NCBI GenBank assembly: GCA_022821845.1
Contig: JAJECT010000042.1
Location: 1-64,000 of the forward strand
Direction of reading: 5' to 3'
DNA: 64,000 bases
DNA from: Rhodothermales bacterium
GTDB taxonomy: Bacteria; Bacteroidota; Rhodothermia; Rhodothermales; VXPQ01
Below, piece by piece: positions 5,803 through 45,472 of this stretch; the stretch's first letter is position 1; every line of letters starts with the position of its first letter. The position numbers and the translations under genes were made by a program. Under the pieces are notes generated by a model that saw only the letters and a program-made list of their open reading frames with translations, had not been told where the DNA came from and ran no database searches.

Positions 5803-5869
5803 GCTTCGTCATGCCTCGCCAGCGCACCCCTCGCAGCCTCTAATCTTCGCGGATTTAATCAGCGTATCC
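5803..5869 (-). repeat. Dispersed MITE-like repeat, copy 1
   Basis: Read on the minus strand this segment begins TAGGATACGCTGATTAAATC and continues through GGCTGCGAGGGGTGCGCTGG to GACGAAGC. It closely matches, over nearly 70 bases, the left half of the element at 11024-11230, and the first 45 bases match the copy at 31888. Its first three bases form the TAG stop of the Type ISP gene. No transposase is encoded in it. Confidence 0.8.
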
Positions 5870-8800
5870 TAAATCGGGTCCGTTCGCCAGGCGGGGTCGG
5901 GCAGTTCGCGCACGATGCGCAAGGTTTCCATGCTTACGCGGACGACCCTGGCCAGCAGTTTCAGGGGATACGCGGGGTTTTGCATGGTTTCGAGGGCGTA
6001 GCGGTTCGCGTCGTTCACGATGCCGCTGGCCTTGTCTGTCTTGACGCATTGCCGCTCCATGACCCAGGCGATGGCGGGCTTCCCGTTCACCATGTAGGCG
6101 TACGCCGCTTCGGGAATGTCCCGCGCCGTGATGTGGTCGTTGTACTGTACGCGCGTCCGGTCTTTGGCCTTGCCCTGGCGCGGATGGCGCATGGGCCCCT
6201 TGACGCGAAACCAGGCCATGGGGGGCATGCCTTCGGGCGGCGTCCAGCCCCCCTTTTCGAAGGCGATGGGCCAGGACTCCGCCTCGTCGTATCGTACGTG
6301 CAGATGGCCCAGTTCCTCCCCGGCCTGCGCCAGCGCCCAAAAATCCTCGGGGCGCGCCGGAATGGGAATGCGCGGCAATTCCTTGCGCAGGTTCGCGGCG
6401 TATTTTTCGCGGTAGGACGGCACGTGCAGCACGCCGTATATGTAATGGAAAAGCACGTCCGCCGTAAGTTCGCTCCCCAGGCCCAGCTGCGCGCGGAACC
6501 CCTGCAGAGCCGCCTCGCTGATGGCGCTCTCGCGGACGTATCCCTCGGCATCCGTTTCGCGCCGGGCGCTGGCGAACAAGCCGTCCTTGTCCGAGGCGGG
6601 CTTGCTGTACAGCCACCGGGGGAAGCATTGGCCGCTGGCGATAAAATGCAGATTGGGAATTTCGTTCGCCATCAAGCATGAAAAATCGTCGCTCTCTCCT
6701 TTTCCTGTCACGCAAATAACCTGATTTTTTACTGCCGCATGCGGAAATAATTTGGGAATCTGATAGACCATTTCATTGAGTCTTCGACCAAAATAAAGGT
6801 GTTGCCGGGTAAATGGCCGATATTGCGACGGCGCAAAACGCCCTTCGTCAATGCCGAGTGATTTGTTCCGCCGGAGATCATTCTTTAATGCCCGCGTCCA
6901 GCTGATTTGCGTAGCGTCATTGTTTACAAGGCGGGTAATTTCCGCTGCCGACAATCGCTGTGCGCTCCCGGCAATCTGATCTTGCAATCGATCCCGTTCT
7001 GCATTGTAGAAGTAGATCATGTCCTCCACGTTACCGCGCAATACAACGTCCGAATAATTGTAGCACCAGGCGTCGCGACCGGTAACTATACCCAGCGAGT
7101 AATTTTTGAATATGGTTGCGCCGCCATGCTCATTTCCAGATTTGTCCCCCATGGCCATAAATTTCGCAAATCCTGCTTCCCGCTGGTTCAGCCAATCATA
7201 ATGTACATCCGGTTTAATGTCCATCCATCCGCCATTTGTCGCTACGCCCTGCAAACCGCCGTACGCGGATACTCTTTCCAGTTTTTCCTCCCGGCTCAGG
7301 TAATCCCCTATGTCGTAAAACCGAATCCGGCAGCCCGTGCGTTCCGGGTTGCGAACCAGGAGCGCAATGGCTACGGGCGCCCGGGATCCTGCGCCAAATA
7401 CCTTGCCCCCTTCCCTTCGCGACCGTTCGCCCTGCGTTCGCTGGTTTCCCCGCAAATGCAATACATGAATACTGGTGAATTCCTCCGCAAAGCATTTGCG
7501 TAAACCATCCATCGCATTGGCCTCCAGCCAGCCCGCATTGGTCACAAAGCCGATCACGCCGCTTTCGCCAATGCGGTCGGAAGCCCAGCGAATGGCACGG
7601 ATATAACTATCGTAAAGATTGCGCAAGGATGCACCCGAAGCATGCGCAACGTAGGTTGTCGCTATCTTGGCATCAAGCTTTGGATATTTCTGATTCTGGG
7701 CCGCGTCATTTTCGCTCTTTTGCCCGGTACTCCACGGCGGATTCCCCACAATCACCCGGATAGGCGCGTCTTTTTGCTTCTTGCGTTGCTCGGAATTCTC
7801 CGGCAGGATGCTTGCAATCAGGTCTTCGGTATCTTGCATTTCGAACGTATCCGTCAGGATGATGCCCGGGAACCGCTCGTAGGCGTCCGCCCCCACCGTT
7901 TCGTGATAGGCCGCCTCGATATTCACCGCCGCAATGTAGTAGGCCAGCAGCATAATCTCGTTGGCGTGCATCTCGGAGGCGTATTTTCCGGGCAAATCTT
8001 CCCGTGAGATCAGCCCATTCTGAATAATGCGCGTGATGAAGGTGCCCGTGCCCGTAAAGGGGTCCAGAATCTGTACGCCGTCCGAAGAAAGAGACTGCCC
8101 GAATTCCGAGCGCAGCAGTTCGTCCACCGAATGCAGGATGAAGTCCACGATTTCTATGGGCGTGTACACAATGCCCAGTTTCTCCGCCGTTTTGGGAAAC
8201 GCGTTTCGGAAGAATTTGTCGTAGAGATCGGTAATGATCTTTTGCCGGGCCAGCGCGGTGTTCGCGGCTTTCGCCCGCCGCGCCACGCTGGCGTAGAATT
8301 CGTCCAGGCTCTCGGCCTCCGTTTCGATATTCGCCGGTTCCAGCACGTCCAGCACCAGCTGCATGCCCTTGCTCACCGGGTTCTCGTCCACGAAGCGGGC
8401 GTCGCCATGCAGCGCCTCGAAAACGGGCCGGGTAACCATGTGCTGCGCCAGCATTTCAATGGCCTCCTTCTCCGTAACGCCTTCGTTCAGGTCGTCGCGG
8501 AGTTCCGCAAGGAATTCGCCGAACACTTCCTGCGCCGCCTCGTCCGCCGTCACCATCGCCTGGATGCGCGCGATATGCCGCTGGGCAATGGCGGCCACGT
8601 CCTCCGCCCATTCGCTCCAGTAGCGCCGGTTGCCGCATTTCTCCACGATCTTCGCCCGGATCGCCGACGGCAGGTCGAATTCGAGGGCGTACTGCTTGTC
8701 CATCTCGCCGTTCGCCGCGCCGTCGCCGCCGGGGTCCTTGTCGCCCGTCCGGGGCGCGCTATCCGGGTCTTTGGGCCGCCAGTCCGAAAGCGCGATAATG

Positions 8801-10548
8801 CCAAGATGCTTGCCGGATTTCCCTTCCTCCAGCAAGTTGAGCATGGCCTCGAACCGCTCGTCGTGCGACCGGATGGCGTTCAGCACCTGCCACACCACCC
8901 GAAACGTGTCGGACTGGTTGAGCGCCTCCGTAGGGTCCATGTTCGAGGGCACGACCACGGGCAGCACCACATAGCCCATGCGCTTGCCCCGAGCGCGGCG
9001 CATCACCCGGCCCACCGCCTGCACCACCTCGATCTGGCTTTTCCGGGGGTGCATGAAAAGAATGGCGTCCAGGGCGGGCACGTCCACGCCTTCCGCCAGG
9101 CAGCGGGCGTTGGTGAGCACCCGGCACGCGCGGTCCGCCGGGCGAACCCCATCCAGCCAATCCAGCCGCTCCGCCCGCCGCAAGGCGTTGAAGGTCCCGT
9201 CCACATGCTTCGCCGCCACGTCGTATTCCGGGGCCGATCCATGCGCCTCGGCGACAGGGGACGCCCGGTATTCGCGCGCCACCTCGTCAAAAAGCGCCTC
9301 CACCTGTTCGGAGGACTTGATGTCCCGGCAATACGCGATGGCCCGGCGCATGGGCAGCCTGTCCTCTTCCGGGAATTCTTCTTCGTCCGCCTTCGCCAGC
9401 GCCCGCCAGCACCCCACGAATTTGCCCGCCTCCGTAAGTTTGAGTTCGTGGCGGGCCAGCGAGGCGCTTACGCCCCGGGCCACGGCGTCCTCCGGCACCG
9501 TCAGCACAATCACTTTGTAATCGGAGAGCAGGTCTTGCTCCACCGCGCTGCCAAACCCGATTTCGTACAACACCGGCCCGTACAGGGACTCGTCCTCCAT
9601 GGAGCACAACGCGGCGTTCACTTCGCCCGCCCGGTTGCGCGCCGAGGCAGCGTATACCTTGGGCGTGGCCGTCATGTAGAGCCGCCGCTCCGCCCGGACA
9701 TGCCGCTGGTCGTGAATCTGGACGAAATGGCTGTCCGCCTCGCCCTCGATGCGCGCGCCCGCCGTCCGGTGCGCCTCGTCGCAGATGGCCAGGTCGAAGT
9801 CCGGCAATCCATGCTCCCGCTGGGCCGCGCCGATCACCGGAAGCGAATGGTACGTGGCAAACACCACGGTGAGCTCATCGGAGGCAGGCGGGGCGGCCTC
9901 CTGCGCCAGCCTGGCCGGGTCCGTCGTCGCCGGAAAGGCCAGGTCCAGCGCGTCCATGTCGATGCGGTCGTCGTTGCGCCGGCGCCTTCGGCCAACCTGC
10001 ACGTCCGAACAGGCGGCGTAGGCCCGAAGCGAACGCCGCGCATCCGCCGCCCATTCCCGAACCGTCTGGGACATCAGCGCCAGACTGGGCACCAGATACA
10101 GGACGCGCCCTCCCGCGCCCGCGATTTCCTCCGCGATCCGCAGCGACGTATACGTCTTGCCCGTGCCGCAGGCCATGATGAGTTTGCCCCGCGATCCCGG
10201 CTCGGCCAATCCGCTTGCCGCCTTGTCGATGGCTTCCTGCTGGTGCGGACGCGGGCGTTTGCGGCCTGCGCTCCGCGCAACCTCCTCGCTCGCGGCGTAT
10301 TTGGCCCAGTCGATGGGGCTTTTGCGGAGTTCGTCCAGCCCGATTCGCAAGGCGGGCACGCCCTGCCGGCGCAGCATGTCCTCTGCCGGAGCGCTCCACA
10401 CCCGGCCCGTCGTGTCGATGATCAGGCGGCGCGTGAACTGGCGCGCGCCCGAAGCCGCCAAAAACGAATCTATTTCCGCTTTCTGAACGCGCTTGCCCTC
10501 GGCCCGGAACTTGCACTGAATGGCGCACCACCCTTCGCCTCCGCGCAC
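5869..10548 (-). CDS. Type ISP restriction-modification enzyme (Mrr-like nuclease, helicase, N6-adenine methylase)
   Basis: A single-chain RM enzyme of the LlaGI/LlaBIII type: it methylates adenine at its site and otherwise uses an ATP-driven motor to move and cleave foreign DNA. From the GTG at 10548 the order is: remainder of a PD-(D/E)xK nuclease (CAIQCKF), SF2 helicase with Walker A ACGTGKT (~126), DEAH box CDEAH (~255), MTATP (~290) and QAVGRVMRR (~505), a helical coupler, methylase motif I DPFTGTGTF (~827) and motif IV NPPW (~934), then target recognition. 1559 aa is close to the family size, but conserved nuclease residues are encoded further upstream, to about 10790: KGTAFERL, and GIDLV with the catalytic Asp. 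No ATG, GTG or TTG exists in that frame; the next ATG (10843) is out of frame across a 12-base homopolymer. The start is therefore unresolved. Confidence 0.9.
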   Translation of the reverse strand: MRGGEGWCAIQCKFRAEGKRVQKAEIDSFLAASGARQFTRRLIIDTTGRVWSAPAEDMLRRQGVPALRIGLDELRKSPIDWAKYAASEEVARSAGRKRPRPHQQEAIDKAASGLAEPGSRGKLIMACGTGKTYTSLRIAEEIAGAGGRVLYLVPSLALMSQTVREWAADARRSLRAYAACSDVQVGRRRRRNDDRIDMDALDLAFPATTDPARLAQEAAPPASDELTVVFATYHSLPVIGAAQREHGLPDFDLAICDEAHRTAGARIEGEADSHFVQIHDQRHVRAERRLYMTATPKVYAASARNRAGEVNAALCSMEDESLYGPVLYEIGFGSAVEQDLLSDYKVIVLTVPEDAVARGVSASLARHELKLTEAGKFVGCWRALAKADEEEFPEEDRLPMRRAIAYCRDIKSSEQVEALFDEVAREYRASPVAEAHGSAPEYDVAAKHVDGTFNALRRAERLDWLDGVRPADRACRVLTNARCLAEGVDVPALDAILFMHPRKSQIEVVQAVGRVMRRARGKRMGYVVLPVVVPSNMDPTEALNQSDTFRVVWQVLNAIRSHDERFEAMLNLLEEGKSGKHLGIIALSDWRPKDPDSAPRTGDKDPGGDGAANGEMDKQYALEFDLPSAIRAKIVEKCGNRRYWSEWAEDVAAIAQRHIARIQAMVTADEAAQEVFGEFLAELRDDLNEGVTEKEAIEMLAQHMVTRPVFEALHGDARFVDENPVSKGMQLVLDVLEPANIETEAESLDEFYASVARRAKAANTALARQKIITDLYDKFFRNAFPKTAEKLGIVYTPIEIVDFILHSVDELLRSEFGQSLSSDGVQILDPFTGTGTFITRIIQNGLISREDLPGKYASEMHANEIMLLAYYIAAVNIEAAYHETVGADAYERFPGIILTDTFEMQDTEDLIASILPENSEQRKKQKDAPIRVIVGNPPWSTGQKSENDAAQNQKYPKLDAKIATTYVAHASGASLRNLYDSYIRAIRWASDRIGESGVIGFVTNAGWLEANAMDGLRKCFAEEFTSIHVLHLRGNQRTQGERSRREGGKVFGAGSRAPVAIALLVRNPERTGCRIRFYDIGDYLSREEKLERVSAYGGLQGVATNGGWMDIKPDVHYDWLNQREAGFAKFMAMGDKSGNEHGGATIFKNYSLGIVTGRDAWCYNYSDVVLRGNVEDMIYFYNAERDRLQDQIAGSAQRLSAAEITRLVNNDATQISWTRALKNDLRRNKSLGIDEGRFAPSQYRPFTRQHLYFGRRLNEMVYQIPKLFPHAAVKNQVICVTGKGESDDFSCLMANEIPNLHFIASGQCFPRWLYSKPASDKDGLFASARRETDAEGYVRESAISEAALQGFRAQLGLGSELTADVLFHYIYGVLHVPSYREKYAANLRKELPRIPIPARPEDFWALAQAGEELGHLHVRYDEAESWPIAFEKGGWTPPEGMPPMAWFRVKGPMRHPRQGKAKDRTRVQYNDHITARDIPEAAYAYMVNGKPAIAWVMERQCVKTDKASGIVNDANRYALETMQNPAYPLKLLARVVRVSMETLRIVRELPDPAWRTDPI

Positions 10549-10811
10549 TTTGGCTACAAGGTCGATCCCCAGGTCTGCCTCGGGAAGGCCTTGCTCCCGG
10601 GCCCACTCCCCGTAACGCGCAGGGGCTTCGTAAAATGTTTGCTGGACTGGGTCGTGTTCGAGAAAGGCAAGGCAAAGCCGCTCGAACGCCGTGCCCTTGA
10701 TCCGTTCCTGGCTATAGCCGGACGCGGCGGCCTTCGCCCGCCAGGCATTCAGTAGATCGTCAAGATCAGACGAGTAAACACTGGCATCCGGGTATTCAGA
10801 ACTTGGATCCC

Positions 10812-10823
10812 GGGGGGGGGGGG
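10812..10823 (-). repeat. Homopolymer tract (C12 on the coding strand) at the 5' end of the Type ISP gene
   Basis: Twelve consecutive G on the plus strand, C on the coding strand, lie between the ATG at 10843-10841 and the first conserved codons of the nuclease domain. With 12 units the ATG frame hits TGA about nine codons after the tract begins. With 11 or 14 units it joins the Type ISP frame. This is the usual architecture of a slipped-strand phase-variation switch, though an assembly length error would look the same. Confidence 0.75.
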
Positions 10824-11023
10824 CTATTATTCGAGCAGTGCATGGGCCGTGTACGGGGGATCGGGGGATCGCGAAAGTCCCCCTTACGCGCGCAGCGACT
10901 GCTTCAGTTGGGGCGCATTTTCGTCAATATATCAAATTTGGTTACGGAAATGTAACGAAAATGCAAAAATTACAGGGGAAGCCACACGGCGTACGCGGCG
11001 ACCGTCAGAGACCAAGGCAAGAA

Positions 11024-11230
11024 TACGCTGATTAAATCCGCGAAGCGCAAAGGCTGCGAGGGGTGCGCTGGCAAGAAATGACGAAGCGACGTGGCAGGGC
11101 CCGCATAAGGAGGGATGACAAGCCAGCGTGCCCCTCGCAGCCTCCCGAAGAGCGCATCGCGTCCTCTACGACCCGAATCTACGGTGCTTTTTGCTGACTT
11201 CAACGACACAAACATGACGATTTAATCAGC
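11024..11230 (+). mobile_element. MITE-like element with terminal inverted repeats
   Basis: About 207 bases bounded by CTGATTAAATC on the left (11029) and its inverse GATTTAATCAG on the right (to 11229). Inside, a second inverted pair GGCTGCGAGGGG (11052) and CCCCTCGCAGCC (11131) would let the transcript fold into a long hairpin. The left half recurs at 5803-5869 and 31888-31932. It encodes no protein of note, so any movement would depend on a transposase elsewhere. Confidence 0.65.
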
Positions 11231-22882: not shown

Positions 22883-22892
22883 CCCCCCCCCC
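22883..22892 (+). repeat. Homopolymer C10 in the gap before eboA
   Basis: Ten C in a row in the non-coding gap between the divergent short T9SS protein and eboA, 105 bases before the eboA ATG. Length changes here could alter promoter spacing. No coding frame depends on it. Confidence 0.5.
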
Positions 22893-30507: not shown

Positions 30508-31890
30508 ATGCCCAAACTCGCCGTCCTGAATATCGTCGGGCTGACGCCCCGCCTCTTGCCGCACGCGCCTTTTCTGTCGTCCTGGGCCGCGCGCGGCAAG
30601 ACGGCGACCCTGACGCCCGTCCTGCCTGCCGTAACCTGCTCCGTGCAAGCCACGCTGCTGACCGGCGTCCTGCCCTCGGAGCACGGGATCGTCGGGAACG
30701 GCTGGTATGTTCGGGACGAAGCGGAAATCCGGTTCTGGCGGCAGTCGAACCGGCTTGTGGAGCGCGAGAAAATATGGGAAAAGGCCCGGCGGCTTGGCGT
30801 GGCGGACTTCTCCTGCGCCAACCTGTTCTGGTGGTACAACATGTATTCGTCGGCGGACTACGCCGCGACGCCGCGCCCCATGTATCCCGCCGACGGGCGA
30901 AAAATCCCGGACGTCTGGACCGAGCCGGACGCGTTGCGGGCGGAACTTCAGCGAAAACTGGGCAGGTTCCCGCTCTTCGAATTCTGGGGACCCGGAACGA
31001 GCATCCGCTCCAGCGAATGGATCGCCCGGTCCGCGCTGCACGTGGACGCCGCATACGATCCGCGCATGACGCTTGTCTATCTGCCCCATCTGGATTACGT
31101 ATTGCAACGCGAAGGGCCGGACGGACCCGGCGTGGCGGCGGAGGTAGCGCAAATCGACGCGGTCTGCGAGGAGCTCGTCGCGCACTACGAAGCGCAGGGG
31201 GCCGCCGTCCTTGCGCTTTCGGAATACGGGGTGACGCCCGCGCGACGGGCCGTGTCGCTTAACCGCGCGCTGCGGCGAGAAGGCTTCCTGCGGATACGGG
31301 AAGAACTGGGCCGCGAACTACTGGATGCAGGGGGGAGCCGGGCCTTTGCGGTGGCGGACCATCAGGTGGCGCATGTGTACGCGAACGATAGGGACGCGCT
31401 GGAGGACGCGCGCGCGGTCGTCGAAGGGGTACGCGGGGTCGCGCAGGTCTTGCAGGGCGAAGAACGCGCCGCCTGCGGCCTGGACCACCCCCGGGCGGGG
31501 GATCTGGTGGCGGTGGCCGAGCCGGACGCCTGGTTTGCGTACTACTACTGGCTGGACGACGACCGGGCGCCCGACTTCGCCCGCACCGTGGATATTCATC
31601 GCAAGCCGGGCTACGATCCGTGCGAACTCTTCCTGGACCCCGCCCTGCCCTCGGCCCGGCTCAAGGCAAGCTGGCGGCTATTGCAAAAGAAACTGGGGTT
31701 TCGCTGCCTGCTGGACGTAATTCCGCTGGATCCGTCGCTGGTCCGGGGAACGCACGGGCGGTTGCCGGACGATCCACTGGACGGACCGCTCATCCTTTCC
31801 AATCGCCCGGACTGCCTCCCGGACGGCCCGCTGCGCGCCACAGACATACAGGACGCGATGCTGGCGCACCTGGGGGCGGGCGCGTTGTAG
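30508..31890 (+). CDS. eboF: Alkaline phosphatase/nucleotide pyrophosphatase family protein EboF
   Basis: 460 aa. Family start MPKLAVLNIVGLTPRLL, and the nucleophile Thr in PAVTCSVQATLLTGVLPSEHG with GIVGNGWY. Later YLPHLDYVLQREGP supplies Asp/His ligands, and ALSEYGVTP and ADHQVAHVY complete the metal sites. Type I phosphodiesterase fold, acting on an unknown ebo metabolite. It starts 46 bases after eboE. Its TAG stop is also the first three bases of a dispersed repeat. Confidence 0.9.
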   Translation: MPKLAVLNIVGLTPRLLPHAPFLSSWAARGKTATLTPVLPAVTCSVQATLLTGVLPSEHGIVGNGWYVRDEAEIRFWRQSNRLVEREKIWEKARRLGVADFSCANLFWWYNMYSSADYAATPRPMYPADGRKIPDVWTEPDALRAELQRKLGRFPLFEFWGPGTSIRSSEWIARSALHVDAAYDPRMTLVYLPHLDYVLQREGPDGPGVAAEVAQIDAVCEELVAHYEAQGAAVLALSEYGVTPARRAVSLNRALRREGFLRIREELGRELLDAGGSRAFAVADHQVAHVYANDRDALEDARAVVEGVRGVAQVLQGEERAACGLDHPRAGDLVAVAEPDAWFAYYYWLDDDRAPDFARTVDIHRKPGYDPCELFLDPALPSARLKASWRLLQKKLGFRCLLDVIPLDPSLVRGTHGRLPDDPLDGPLILSNRPDCLPDGPLRATDIQDAMLAHLGAGAL

Positions 31891-31932
31891 GATACTCTGA
31901 TTAAATCCACGAAGCTCAGAGGCTGCGAGGGG
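31888..31932 (+). repeat. Dispersed MITE-like repeat, copy 3
   Basis: TAGGATACTCTGATTAAATC followed by CACGAAG and AGAGGCTGCGAGGGG matches the edge and inner block of the copies at 5803-5869 and 11024. The TAG is the eboF stop. The match ends about 45 bases in. Confidence 0.75.
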
Positions 31933-42551: not shown

Positions 42552-42634
42552 AGGCGCACAAGCCGAGCCCGAGCCGGCATCATCCTCTACACTGAAAAAA
42601 CGATGCAAATTGCCCAATTTGCCCACTGTATGCC

Positions 42635-45472
42635 ATGACTACACCTGAGGGACTCAGCGATCTCGTCAAGCGATTTAAGCGCAACGTGGATTCATACACT
42701 TCTGGAAAATACAACGAAACGCAGCTTCGCCGCGAATTCGTTGACCCACTGTTTGAATTGTTAGGATGGGACGTGAGTAATTCAGAGGGTTATTCAGAGG
42801 CATACAAAGATGTAATACATGAAGATGCTATCAAGATTGGTGGTGGAACTAAAGCTCCAGATTATGCTTTTCGGGTTGGGGGGGAGCGCAAATTTTTTGT
42901 TGAGACAAAGGCACCGCACAAGAACCTAAAAAATGATCCCAATTCAGCGTTTCAGCTCCGACGTTATGCATGGTCTGCCAAACTTCCTCTCTCCATTTTG
43001 ACAGATTTCGAAGAATTTTCTGTTTATGATACGCGTTTCCGGCCGTTAAAATCCGACAAAGCTGCAACGGCCCGAATTTTGTATCTGCGTTTCACTGACT
43101 ACACCAATCGCTGGAGCGAAATCGCAAACATTTTCTCCCGCGATGCGGTACATGCCGGTGCTTTTGATGCATACGCTGAGTCCAAGAAGGCGAAACGGGG
43201 CACTGCCGAGGTTGACGAATCTTTTCTCCAAGAAATCGAAAGCTGGCGTGAATCTTTAGCAAAGAACCTTGCGCTTAGAAATCCCGACATAGGCTTACGA
43301 CTTCTCAATACAGCTGTCCAGAAGACTATTGACCGTATCGTATTCCTTCGTATCTGCGAAGATCGAGGAATAGAGCCTTATGCTCAACTAATGGCTCTTG
43401 TGAACGGTGGTAAAGTGTATGAGCGGCTTGTTCAAGTATTTATTCACGCTGATCTACGCTATAACTCTGGCTTATTTCATTTTCGAGAAGAATCGGGGCG
43501 TAGTGAAACACCTGACACCCAGACACTCAATATCACTATCGACGACGGAATTCTAAAGCGCATCATATCACATCTATATTATCCCGATAGCCCTTACGAA
43601 TTCTCTGTGTTTTCTGCAGATATACTTGGGCAGGTGTACGAGCAATTTTTAGGAAAAGTGATTCGATTGACTCGAGGTCATCGAGCTAAGGTGGAAGAGA
43701 AGCCTGAGGTTAGAAAATCCGGCGGTGTCTATTACACACCCACCAATGTTGTGGACTACCTGGTTCGTAAAACCGTTGGGACTCTGCTTGAAGAGGCTGG
43801 CACACCCAAGAAAGCAGCGTCTTTGAGGATTCTAGACCCAGCATGTGGTTCGGGATCTTTTTTGATTAACGTCTACCAGGCTCTCCTGAACTGGCACCTT
43901 GAGTGGTACCACAAAGATGGCATTGAGAAGCATTCGAAGGGTCGCAACCCCAAAGTATACCAAGGGCCACGGAGCGAGTGGCGGCTGACCACAGCGGAGC
44001 GCAAGCGAATCCTCAAAAACGGTGTCTACGGTGTCGACATAGACCCGCAGGCAGTGGAAGTCACCAAGTTGTCGCTCCTGCTCAAGGTCCTAGAGGGAGA
44101 ATCTGCGGATAGACTTGCGAGCCAATTGAAGTTGTTTCGCGAGAGAGCGTTACCCGACTTGGGGAGCAACATCAAGTGTGGCAATTCATTGGTTGGTACT
44201 GATTATTACGCTGAGAGGCAGGCAATCCTCTTCAACGAAGATGAACTTTATAGTATCAATGCATTTGACTGGGAAGTGGAGTTCCAGCAGGTTTTCAGTG
44301 ATGGTGGATTCAGTGCGGTGATAGGAAACCCTCCGTATCTGTCATTCTCAGGAAGACAAGCGGTCCCCTTGGACGATGATCTGCGTGAATACTATGCACG
44401 ACGGTACCCGATATCCGGTTGGCAAACCAGCCACGGATTCTTTATCGTCAGGGCTCATTCTCTAACCAACCGAATGGTCGGCTTTATTGTCCCGGATCAA
44501 GTCGGGCATCTCAAGGGATATGGATCGATTCGAGATGCCGTTACGAATGCCTCATCACTCGTAGCGGTACGCTACTGGGGAGAGGGAGTGTTTCCTGGAG
44601 TGGTGACTCCGGCCTTGACCTTTGTCACTGACAAGTCCTACAGTGATGCGGTCAGAATAAAGACCTCCGACGGTCTGAATACCGAGTGCAAAATAAGTTC
44701 TGGCAACGCGTGGATTCCACCCTCGCCACATACGGACCTCATTGAGAAACTGTGTGCCCAGGCTACACCTCTTTCCGGCTGCTTCGCGGATCCAGGAGTA
44801 CACACCGGAAATTGCTCCAAGAAGCTGATCCTATCGCTTGATGAAGCACAGCCTGATTCGGTGCCAGTACTCGAGGGAAAGCAGGTCGCGAGGTATATCT
44901 GTCGTCCTCCAACCAAGACCCTCAGACTCGAGTATGGGGCTTCAAACGGTGAATATTTCACGATCAGGCCTGTTGATCGCTATCGCAATGCAACGTTCGT
45001 GATCAGGCAGACGGCTAGTTACCCGATTGTTGGGCCGCGGCAATATGCTGAATATTTCCGAAACTCGCTACTGGCGCTGTATCCACCGGACGATGATCGT
45101 GACGTGCGGTTCGTGGTCGCCATCCTCAACTCCCGTTTAATGAGGTACGTGTATAGCGTCTTGGTAAAAGAGTCTGCTCAGAAGGCCTTTCCTCAAGTCA
45201 AGGTAGGCTCCCTTCGGGCTCTGCCGATTCGAGCCGTCGATCTAAATTCCGAGTGGGATAAGAAGGTTCATGATCTTCTCGTAACTCGAGTTGATCGGTT
45301 AATCGAGCTTCACGCATGCGTTGAATCGGCAGAGACAGATCATGAACGACAGGTGTTGAAACGCCGGATCCAAGGCATAGACCGAGAGGTGGATCAATTG
45401 GTCGAAAAAATGTATGGCCTATCTGCAACTGAAGTAGATCAGATCAGGTGTCATCTTACCGAAACAGGATAG
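42635..45472 (+). CDS. Type IIG-like restriction-modification protein (Eco57I-type N6-adenine methylase with N-terminal nuclease)
   Basis: 945 aa. An N-terminal HSDR-N-like PD-(D/E)xK nuclease (APDYAF Asp76, FFVETKAP Glu90/Lys92), a helical linker, an Eco57I-type methylase with GVYYTPTNVVDYLV, motif I DPACGSGSFLI (~400) and motif IV NPPYLSF (~564), then target recognition and a coiled C-terminal end (RRIQGIDREVDQLVEKMYGL). It would both methylate and cut at one site. Base composition is clearly less GC-rich than the flanking host genes, a sign of transfer. The HNH gene follows after four bases. Confidence 0.9.
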   Translation: MTTPEGLSDLVKRFKRNVDSYTSGKYNETQLRREFVDPLFELLGWDVSNSEGYSEAYKDVIHEDAIKIGGGTKAPDYAFRVGGERKFFVETKAPHKNLKNDPNSAFQLRRYAWSAKLPLSILTDFEEFSVYDTRFRPLKSDKAATARILYLRFTDYTNRWSEIANIFSRDAVHAGAFDAYAESKKAKRGTAEVDESFLQEIESWRESLAKNLALRNPDIGLRLLNTAVQKTIDRIVFLRICEDRGIEPYAQLMALVNGGKVYERLVQVFIHADLRYNSGLFHFREESGRSETPDTQTLNITIDDGILKRIISHLYYPDSPYEFSVFSADILGQVYEQFLGKVIRLTRGHRAKVEEKPEVRKSGGVYYTPTNVVDYLVRKTVGTLLEEAGTPKKAASLRILDPACGSGSFLINVYQALLNWHLEWYHKDGIEKHSKGRNPKVYQGPRSEWRLTTAERKRILKNGVYGVDIDPQAVEVTKLSLLLKVLEGESADRLASQLKLFRERALPDLGSNIKCGNSLVGTDYYAERQAILFNEDELYSINAFDWEVEFQQVFSDGGFSAVIGNPPYLSFSGRQAVPLDDDLREYYARRYPISGWQTSHGFFIVRAHSLTNRMVGFIVPDQVGHLKGYGSIRDAVTNASSLVAVRYWGEGVFPGVVTPALTFVTDKSYSDAVRIKTSDGLNTECKISSGNAWIPPSPHTDLIEKLCAQATPLSGCFADPGVHTGNCSKKLILSLDEAQPDSVPVLEGKQVARYICRPPTKTLRLEYGASNGEYFTIRPVDRYRNATFVIRQTASYPIVGPRQYAEYFRNSLLALYPPDDDRDVRFVVAILNSRLMRYVYSVLVKESAQKAFPQVKVGSLRALPIRAVDLNSEWDKKVHDLLVTRVDRLIELHACVESAETDHERQVLKRRIQGIDREVDQLVEKMYGLSATEVDQIRCHLTETG

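Follow-up and report, generated by a model that had tools for sequence, protein, structure and literature searches.

A homopolymer near the start of a Type ISP restriction-modification gene in a Rhodothermales bacterium: a presumptive phase-variable switch

Is a Type ISP restriction-modification (RM) gene whose start codon and nuclease domain lie in different reading frames dead, misassembled, or switched off? The question is raised by the first 64,000 nucleotides (the window) of contig JAJECT010000042.1 in the Rhodothermales bacterium assembly GCA_022821845.1, where a run of 12 C residues (C12) on the minus strand stands between a presumed ATG and the frame for all the enzyme's domains. From comparisons between the genome of the window (G000) and a sister-species genome available as a separate assembly (G002), we consider it very probable that the gene is intact, that its translation is phase-variable by slipped-strand mispairing in the poly-C tract, and that the assembled copy is OFF. 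The argument turns on the following features:

10924..10926, minus strand: upstream stop of the nuclease frame (from frame arithmetic)
10841..10843, minus strand: ATG taken as the presumed start (shared with the sister genome)
10812..10823, minus strand: C12 homopolymer, presumed phase-variable tract (C11 in the sister genome)
10796..10798, minus strand: TGA reached from the ATG with 12 C, the OFF state (from frame arithmetic)
5869..10809, minus strand: Type ISP RM frame after the tract (from domains, the LlaBIII match and PADLOC)

Direct re-reading of the sequence bore out every coordinate in the initial annotation of this locus to the base. The nuclease frame is closed upstream by TGA at 10926-10924, and from there to 10548 it holds no ATG, GTG or TTG, only ATC, ATA and CTG. 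Between the ATG at 10843-10841 and the C12 at 10823-10812, seven codons into the gene, lie 17 bases, or 20 if the ATG itself is included. Varying the tract length in silico confirmed that i) with 12 C, translation would cover 15 codons and then meet TGA at 10798-10796; ii) with 8, 11 or 14 C, the nuclease frame is restored to give 1656-1658 codons; and, in addition, iii) with 9, 10, 13 or 15 C, a stop is again reached within 31 codons. After the tract, the open reading frame (ORF, minus strand 10809-5869) is complete, with 1646 codons and a stop. The chance expectation of a C12 is 0.01 per window (1 of 100 dinucleotide shuffles).

The identity of the enzyme, proposed at first from the letters alone, is upheld by the order of Pfam domains on one polypeptide (PF13156, PF04851/PF00271, PF22240, PF02384, PF18135), which is the Type ISP layout, and by a full-length match to LlaBIII, placing it in the LlaBIII/LlaGI family; PADLOC classes the gene as a restriction enzyme-methyltransferase. 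Type ISP enzymes methylate one strand of an asymmetric site and cleave after two translocating enzymes converge. The domains are:

10285..10656, minus strand: Mrr-type nuclease domain PF13156 (Pfam; invariant Asp at 10561-10563, QCK motif)
9658..10260, minus strand: N-terminal part of the helicase-like ATPase, PF04851 (Pfam)
8995..9264, minus strand: helicase C-terminal domain PF00271 (Pfam)
8254..8622, minus strand: ISP coupler domain PF22240 (Pfam)
7678..8244, minus strand: N6-adenine methyltransferase domain PF02384 (Pfam; NPPW motif further on)
5959..7113, minus strand: Type ISP C-terminal specificity domain PF18135 (Pfam)

A phmmer comparison with 4xqk scored 1127 bits and paired residues 15-1638 of the enzyme with 14-1573, so that the N-terminal alignment with LlaBIII that the initial annotation had called for begins at residue 15 of the post-tract frame; the solved LlaGI chain aligns from 184 on. 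Across an eight-sequence alignment, the Asp of GIDLVA and the WCAIQCKF segment (Q/E-x-K) are invariant, and the codon for that catalytic Asp is GAC at 10563-10561 on the minus strand, as originally stated.

Could translation simply begin after the tract? Two non-standard or late starts come into consideration: CTG at 10752, which lies in the nuclease frame of G000 and is matched by a CTG at the corresponding position in G002, and the GTG at 10548. From the tract as far as the end of the conserved (L/I)D..IL..W motif, the CTG is the only alternative table-11 start, and its use would cut into that motif and remove the (L/I)D..IL segment; the GTG is downstream of the Asp codon, and a start there would delete the invariant residue. 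Moreover, homologues have an ATG about 7-15 residues ahead of the motif, which puts it close to the tract and upstream of 10548; in most of them it lies upstream of both candidate positions. Homologues that truly start at the equivalent of 10548 were the outcome named beforehand as telling against a switch, and their starts instead match the position of the tract. We regard a start after the tract as extremely unlikely.

The G002 orthologue is the most informative comparison. It is 90% identical in amino acid sequence, its start region is 91% identical in DNA (the tract flanks are 88-95% identical), and it has the same ATG, followed by C11 rather than C12. A single fixed length in frame with an ATG would have pointed to an assembly error, and the one available relative with a long tract differs in length. 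Nor does its C11 restore the frame: G002 has one G fewer after the tract, and C11 is out of frame in the opposite direction, with 9, 12 or 15 C in frame. The shift needed is thus a net -1 (or +2) in G000 and a net +1 (or -2) in G002. Downstream, a codon comparison of the two genes gives dS (synonymous divergence) of 0.30, dN (nonsynonymous divergence) of 0.065 and dN/dS of 0.22, with values of 0.15-0.23 in every domain; internal frameshifts number 0 over 1640 codons, and the alignment gaps are confined to its ten opening columns, next to the tract.

These observations bear on three further explanations. If the homopolymer frameshift had inactivated the gene and left it to decay, the out-of-frame state in both species would be accounted for, as would that of a more distant relative (the C7 copy L035/L064, which we set aside as support for a switch because it carries another frameshift): its ATG too leads into the wrong frame, and its second, repeat-free frameshift lies near residues 882-902. 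Gene death nevertheless seems improbable: a dN/dS of 0.22 and the lack of any internal frameshift make it unlikely that the gene is fixed OFF in both lineages; 11-12 C have been kept despite the instability of long runs, which chance would not be expected to produce; opposite shifts would be needed in the two species; and parallel tracts occur in other RM genes, some of them in frame. An error of sequencing or assembly, the true length being in frame in all cells, appeals to the known error-proneness of homopolymers and to contig C21 of G000 and contig C1 of G002, which end in impure poly-C of about 80-100 bases (L087 1-133, at the start of C21; L108 508-610, at the end of C1) that is itself probably a sequencing or assembly artefact. 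The tract at issue, however, lies mid-contig with unique sequence on both sides; since C11 also occurs in the separate assembly of the sister species, it is not a one-off assembly error; the tracts are not peculiar to fragmented assemblies, because single-contig genomes of the group carry C9-C18; and errors would not concentrate in methyltransferase genes. We consider error very unlikely. Finally, programmed translational frameshifting or transcriptional slippage might read through the tract and yield protein at any length, polymerase slippage being possible at long homopolymers. The opposite shifts required in the two species are such that no fixed programmed direction fits both, and we give this explanation little credence; low-level slippage would in any case add to a genetic switch rather than replace it.

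We also considered a 65-bp inverted repeat, 89% identical, that brackets the ISP gene (window 5803-5867 and 11023-11087), as a possible inversion switch. This proved unsupported: a partial third copy lies elsewhere (31889-31932), and the orientation is the same in both species. It is probably a dispersed intergenic repeat.

A switch by slipped-strand mispairing gains plausibility from the company that the tract keeps. Internal C/G runs in G000 number 27 at a length of at least 10, 17 at 11 or more (3.9 expected from the window's P(C|C) of 0.28), 8 at 12 or more (about 1.1 expected), and 3 at 13 (0.3 expected). Six of the 27 fall inside methyltransferase or RM genes, for which chance would supply about 0.6 on our estimate that methyltransferase genes make up about 2% of the genome; G000 has roughly 22-30 such genes (PF01555, PF02384 and PF00145 together give about 22 matches). 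These tract-bearing genes of G000 are:

Window, minus strand: Type ISP gene, C12, OFF
L089 1289-1301: Type III mod, G13, OFF (profile positions 5-155 and 160-570 on either side)
L090 1237-1247: Type I hsdM, G11, OFF (profile positions 3-121 and 125-309 on either side)
L097 1234-1246: N6/N4 methyltransferase with HNH, C13 located 28 codons after the ATG, ON
L084 1128-1139 and L103 1301-1312: two near-duplicate DUF1156/Hma methylases, G12 each, one ON and one OFF

The ON copy of the Hma methylase carries its G12 in the DPFAGGG region, and the OFF near-duplicate has a G12 plus one more flanking base. The remaining G000 tracts lie in Calx-beta, lamin-tail and signal-peptide-like proteins, in a TonB receptor leader, and in intergenic repeats. 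In G002, ISP1, ISP2, two methyltransferase-HNH genes and a Druantia-like helicase are OFF, an Hma methylase and a C5-methyltransferase are ON, and of two EcoRI-type methyltransferases one is ON (G9) and the other OFF (G10). Over both genomes, 5 of 15 tract-bearing RM or defence genes are in frame, a proportion of one third, as random slippage would predict, and the length differs in 6 of 9 one-to-one orthologous tracts even though the flanks are mostly 85-98% identical. This RM-rich pattern holds for G000 and G002; in G020, inspection by eye of 20 stretches showed no C/G tract in an obvious RM gene, and G005 has almost no long C/G tracts. Phase variation, the reading first offered for this locus, is thus supported both by intact ORFs under purifying selection that need opposite shifts in two species and by other RM genes that carry similar tracts, some ON and some OFF.

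Several side observations arose from this survey. In 8 of the 27 G000 tracts the C run is immediately preceded by TAG, and in 13 of 27 by TA, as against 0.9% and 4.3% of the short C runs in the window; the excess before long C tracts is found in both G000 and G002, whichever strand codes. An AraC-type helix-turn-helix gene family (L138, L139 and L141 of G004; L123 of G002) carries C11-C18 in its N-terminal leader in several copies and is possibly a phase-variable regulator. Within the window, a C10 lies in an apparently non-coding AT-rich stretch (22883-22892), and a 958-codon ORF with an N6_Mtase match (42596-45472) is a further RM-like gene.

Beyond the sister species, we were unable to find a comparable tract in other copies of the gene. 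Among 114 genomes of the order searched for tract-bearing copies, 21 had a match, and apart from the sister species these showed just weak C6-C7 runs near the start. The single-contig genome G020 has two ISP copies in which repeats were sought and none found, and the 1-bp frameshift that it carries does not coincide with a tract; a search for the tract flank in viral contigs likewise returned nothing. G002 holds a second enzyme, ISP2 (L112, contig C5; 46% identical to the window ISP), with two tracts: a G11 at L112 7295-7305, between the catalytic GIDLVAEER and YCAIQCK, which is OFF and would be ON at 9 or 12; and a (CGAA)12 at L112 3474-3521 in the specificity domain, also out of frame as assembled, such that 12 repeats give 1376 codons and 10 or 13 give 1654 or 1658. 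In another species (G003), the ISP gene is split over two contigs, each of which breaks off in a CCAA/TGGT tetranucleotide repeat of at least 84 bases (L003 5447-5533; L007 2408-2494), at the position in the specificity domain where ISP2 has its CGAA repeat.

We wish to stress the points that weigh against a phase-variable switch: neither of the two sequenced orthologues is ON, and this exact gene has not been seen in that state; length-10 tracts are just about twofold over the simple expectation, the excess becoming clear from 11 up; the length differences seen are those between assemblies of different species; and with the ATG at 10843, about 26 residues would precede the LDD motif, more than the roughly 7-15 in homologues, so that we assign this ATG as the start by inference.

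If the gene is switched in this manner, slipped-strand mispairing during replication would change the C count and shift the reading frame. In one frame of three, the whole nuclease-helicase-methyltransferase-specificity protein would be made; in the other two, the ribosome would stop within 14-31 codons, and restriction and methylation would be lost together. With all activities on a single chain, restriction and self-protection would vanish at the same time, avoiding an unprotected nuclease, at the cost that on a switch to ON the genome must be methylated before cutting begins. The tract would then belong to a set of poly-C/G contingency loci in this Rhodothermales genus, lying disproportionately in methyltransferase and RM genes and also in surface proteins, and each population would comprise cells that differ in their restriction-methylation repertoire, phage defence probably switching ON and OFF randomly in individual cells. 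Switching within a population, its effect on expression, and its consequences for phage defence and epigenetic regulation would follow by analogy, the expression step and the last two effects being inferred from known phase-variable RM systems. Tentatively, and with rather less conviction, we suggest that these uncultured Rhodothermales may randomise much of their RM repertoire cell by cell; that their ISP enzymes may be doubly switched, by a homopolymer within or close to the nuclease that sets ON or OFF and, in a second ISP paralogue, by a tetranucleotide repeat in the specificity domain that truncates or completes target recognition; and that the TAG/TA context may hint at a mechanism that creates or stabilises the tracts.

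Phase-variable RM in general is well known, the main examples coming from Types I, IIG and III and from bacteria adapted to humans or animals. The present case, if confirmed, would extend it to Type ISP and to an uncultured environmental lineage of Rhodothermales. No Type ISP enzyme switched by simple sequence repeats (SSRs) was found in the accessible part of the open literature searched, subscription journals and REBASE lying outside that search, and we claim no priority. The Lactococcus enzymes LlaBIII and LlaGI share the order of Mrr nuclease, superfamily 2 helicase-like ATPase, coupler, N6-adenine methyltransferase and specificity domain, but to our knowledge their genes have no repeat tract, whereas the window gene has C12 after its ATG. 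Type IIG enzymes of Helicobacter pylori and Campylobacter jejuni, the latter species reportedly having a phase-variable one, are likewise single-chain RM proteins switched by repeat tracts, although they lack the helicase motor of Type ISP and their hosts are human- or animal-adapted. As described in one study (PMC3936762), the H. pylori Type ISP genes HP0667-HP0669/JHP0612-0613 are silenced by frameshifts, two of which in strain 26695 are not due to sequence repeats and when corrected yield an active N6-methyladenine methyltransferase, the J99 frameshift being called authentic; the window ISP, by contrast, is broken at a 12-base homopolymer. The same study describes the Type IIG enzyme JHP1272/HP1353-1354, in which the first tract (a PPPP-coding C run) sets ON or OFF and the second changes specificity (PMC3936762), an arrangement that ISP2 of G002 resembles. 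Phase-variable Type I and III systems are described in reviews (PMC12707154). In Type I hsdM and Type III mod phasevarions, as here, SSR slippage switches a methyltransferase, and the poly-G mod and hsdM genes of G000 are both out of frame. A phasevarion is a regulon whose expression is altered by such ON/OFF switching. In Types I and III, however, the subunits are encoded by separate genes, whereas a single frame governs the nuclease, motor, methylation and specificity of a Type ISP enzyme; one slippage event would, if the switch is confirmed, turn off cutting and protective methylation at once, and a single population would be predicted to show mixed methylomes and to hedge its bets against phage.
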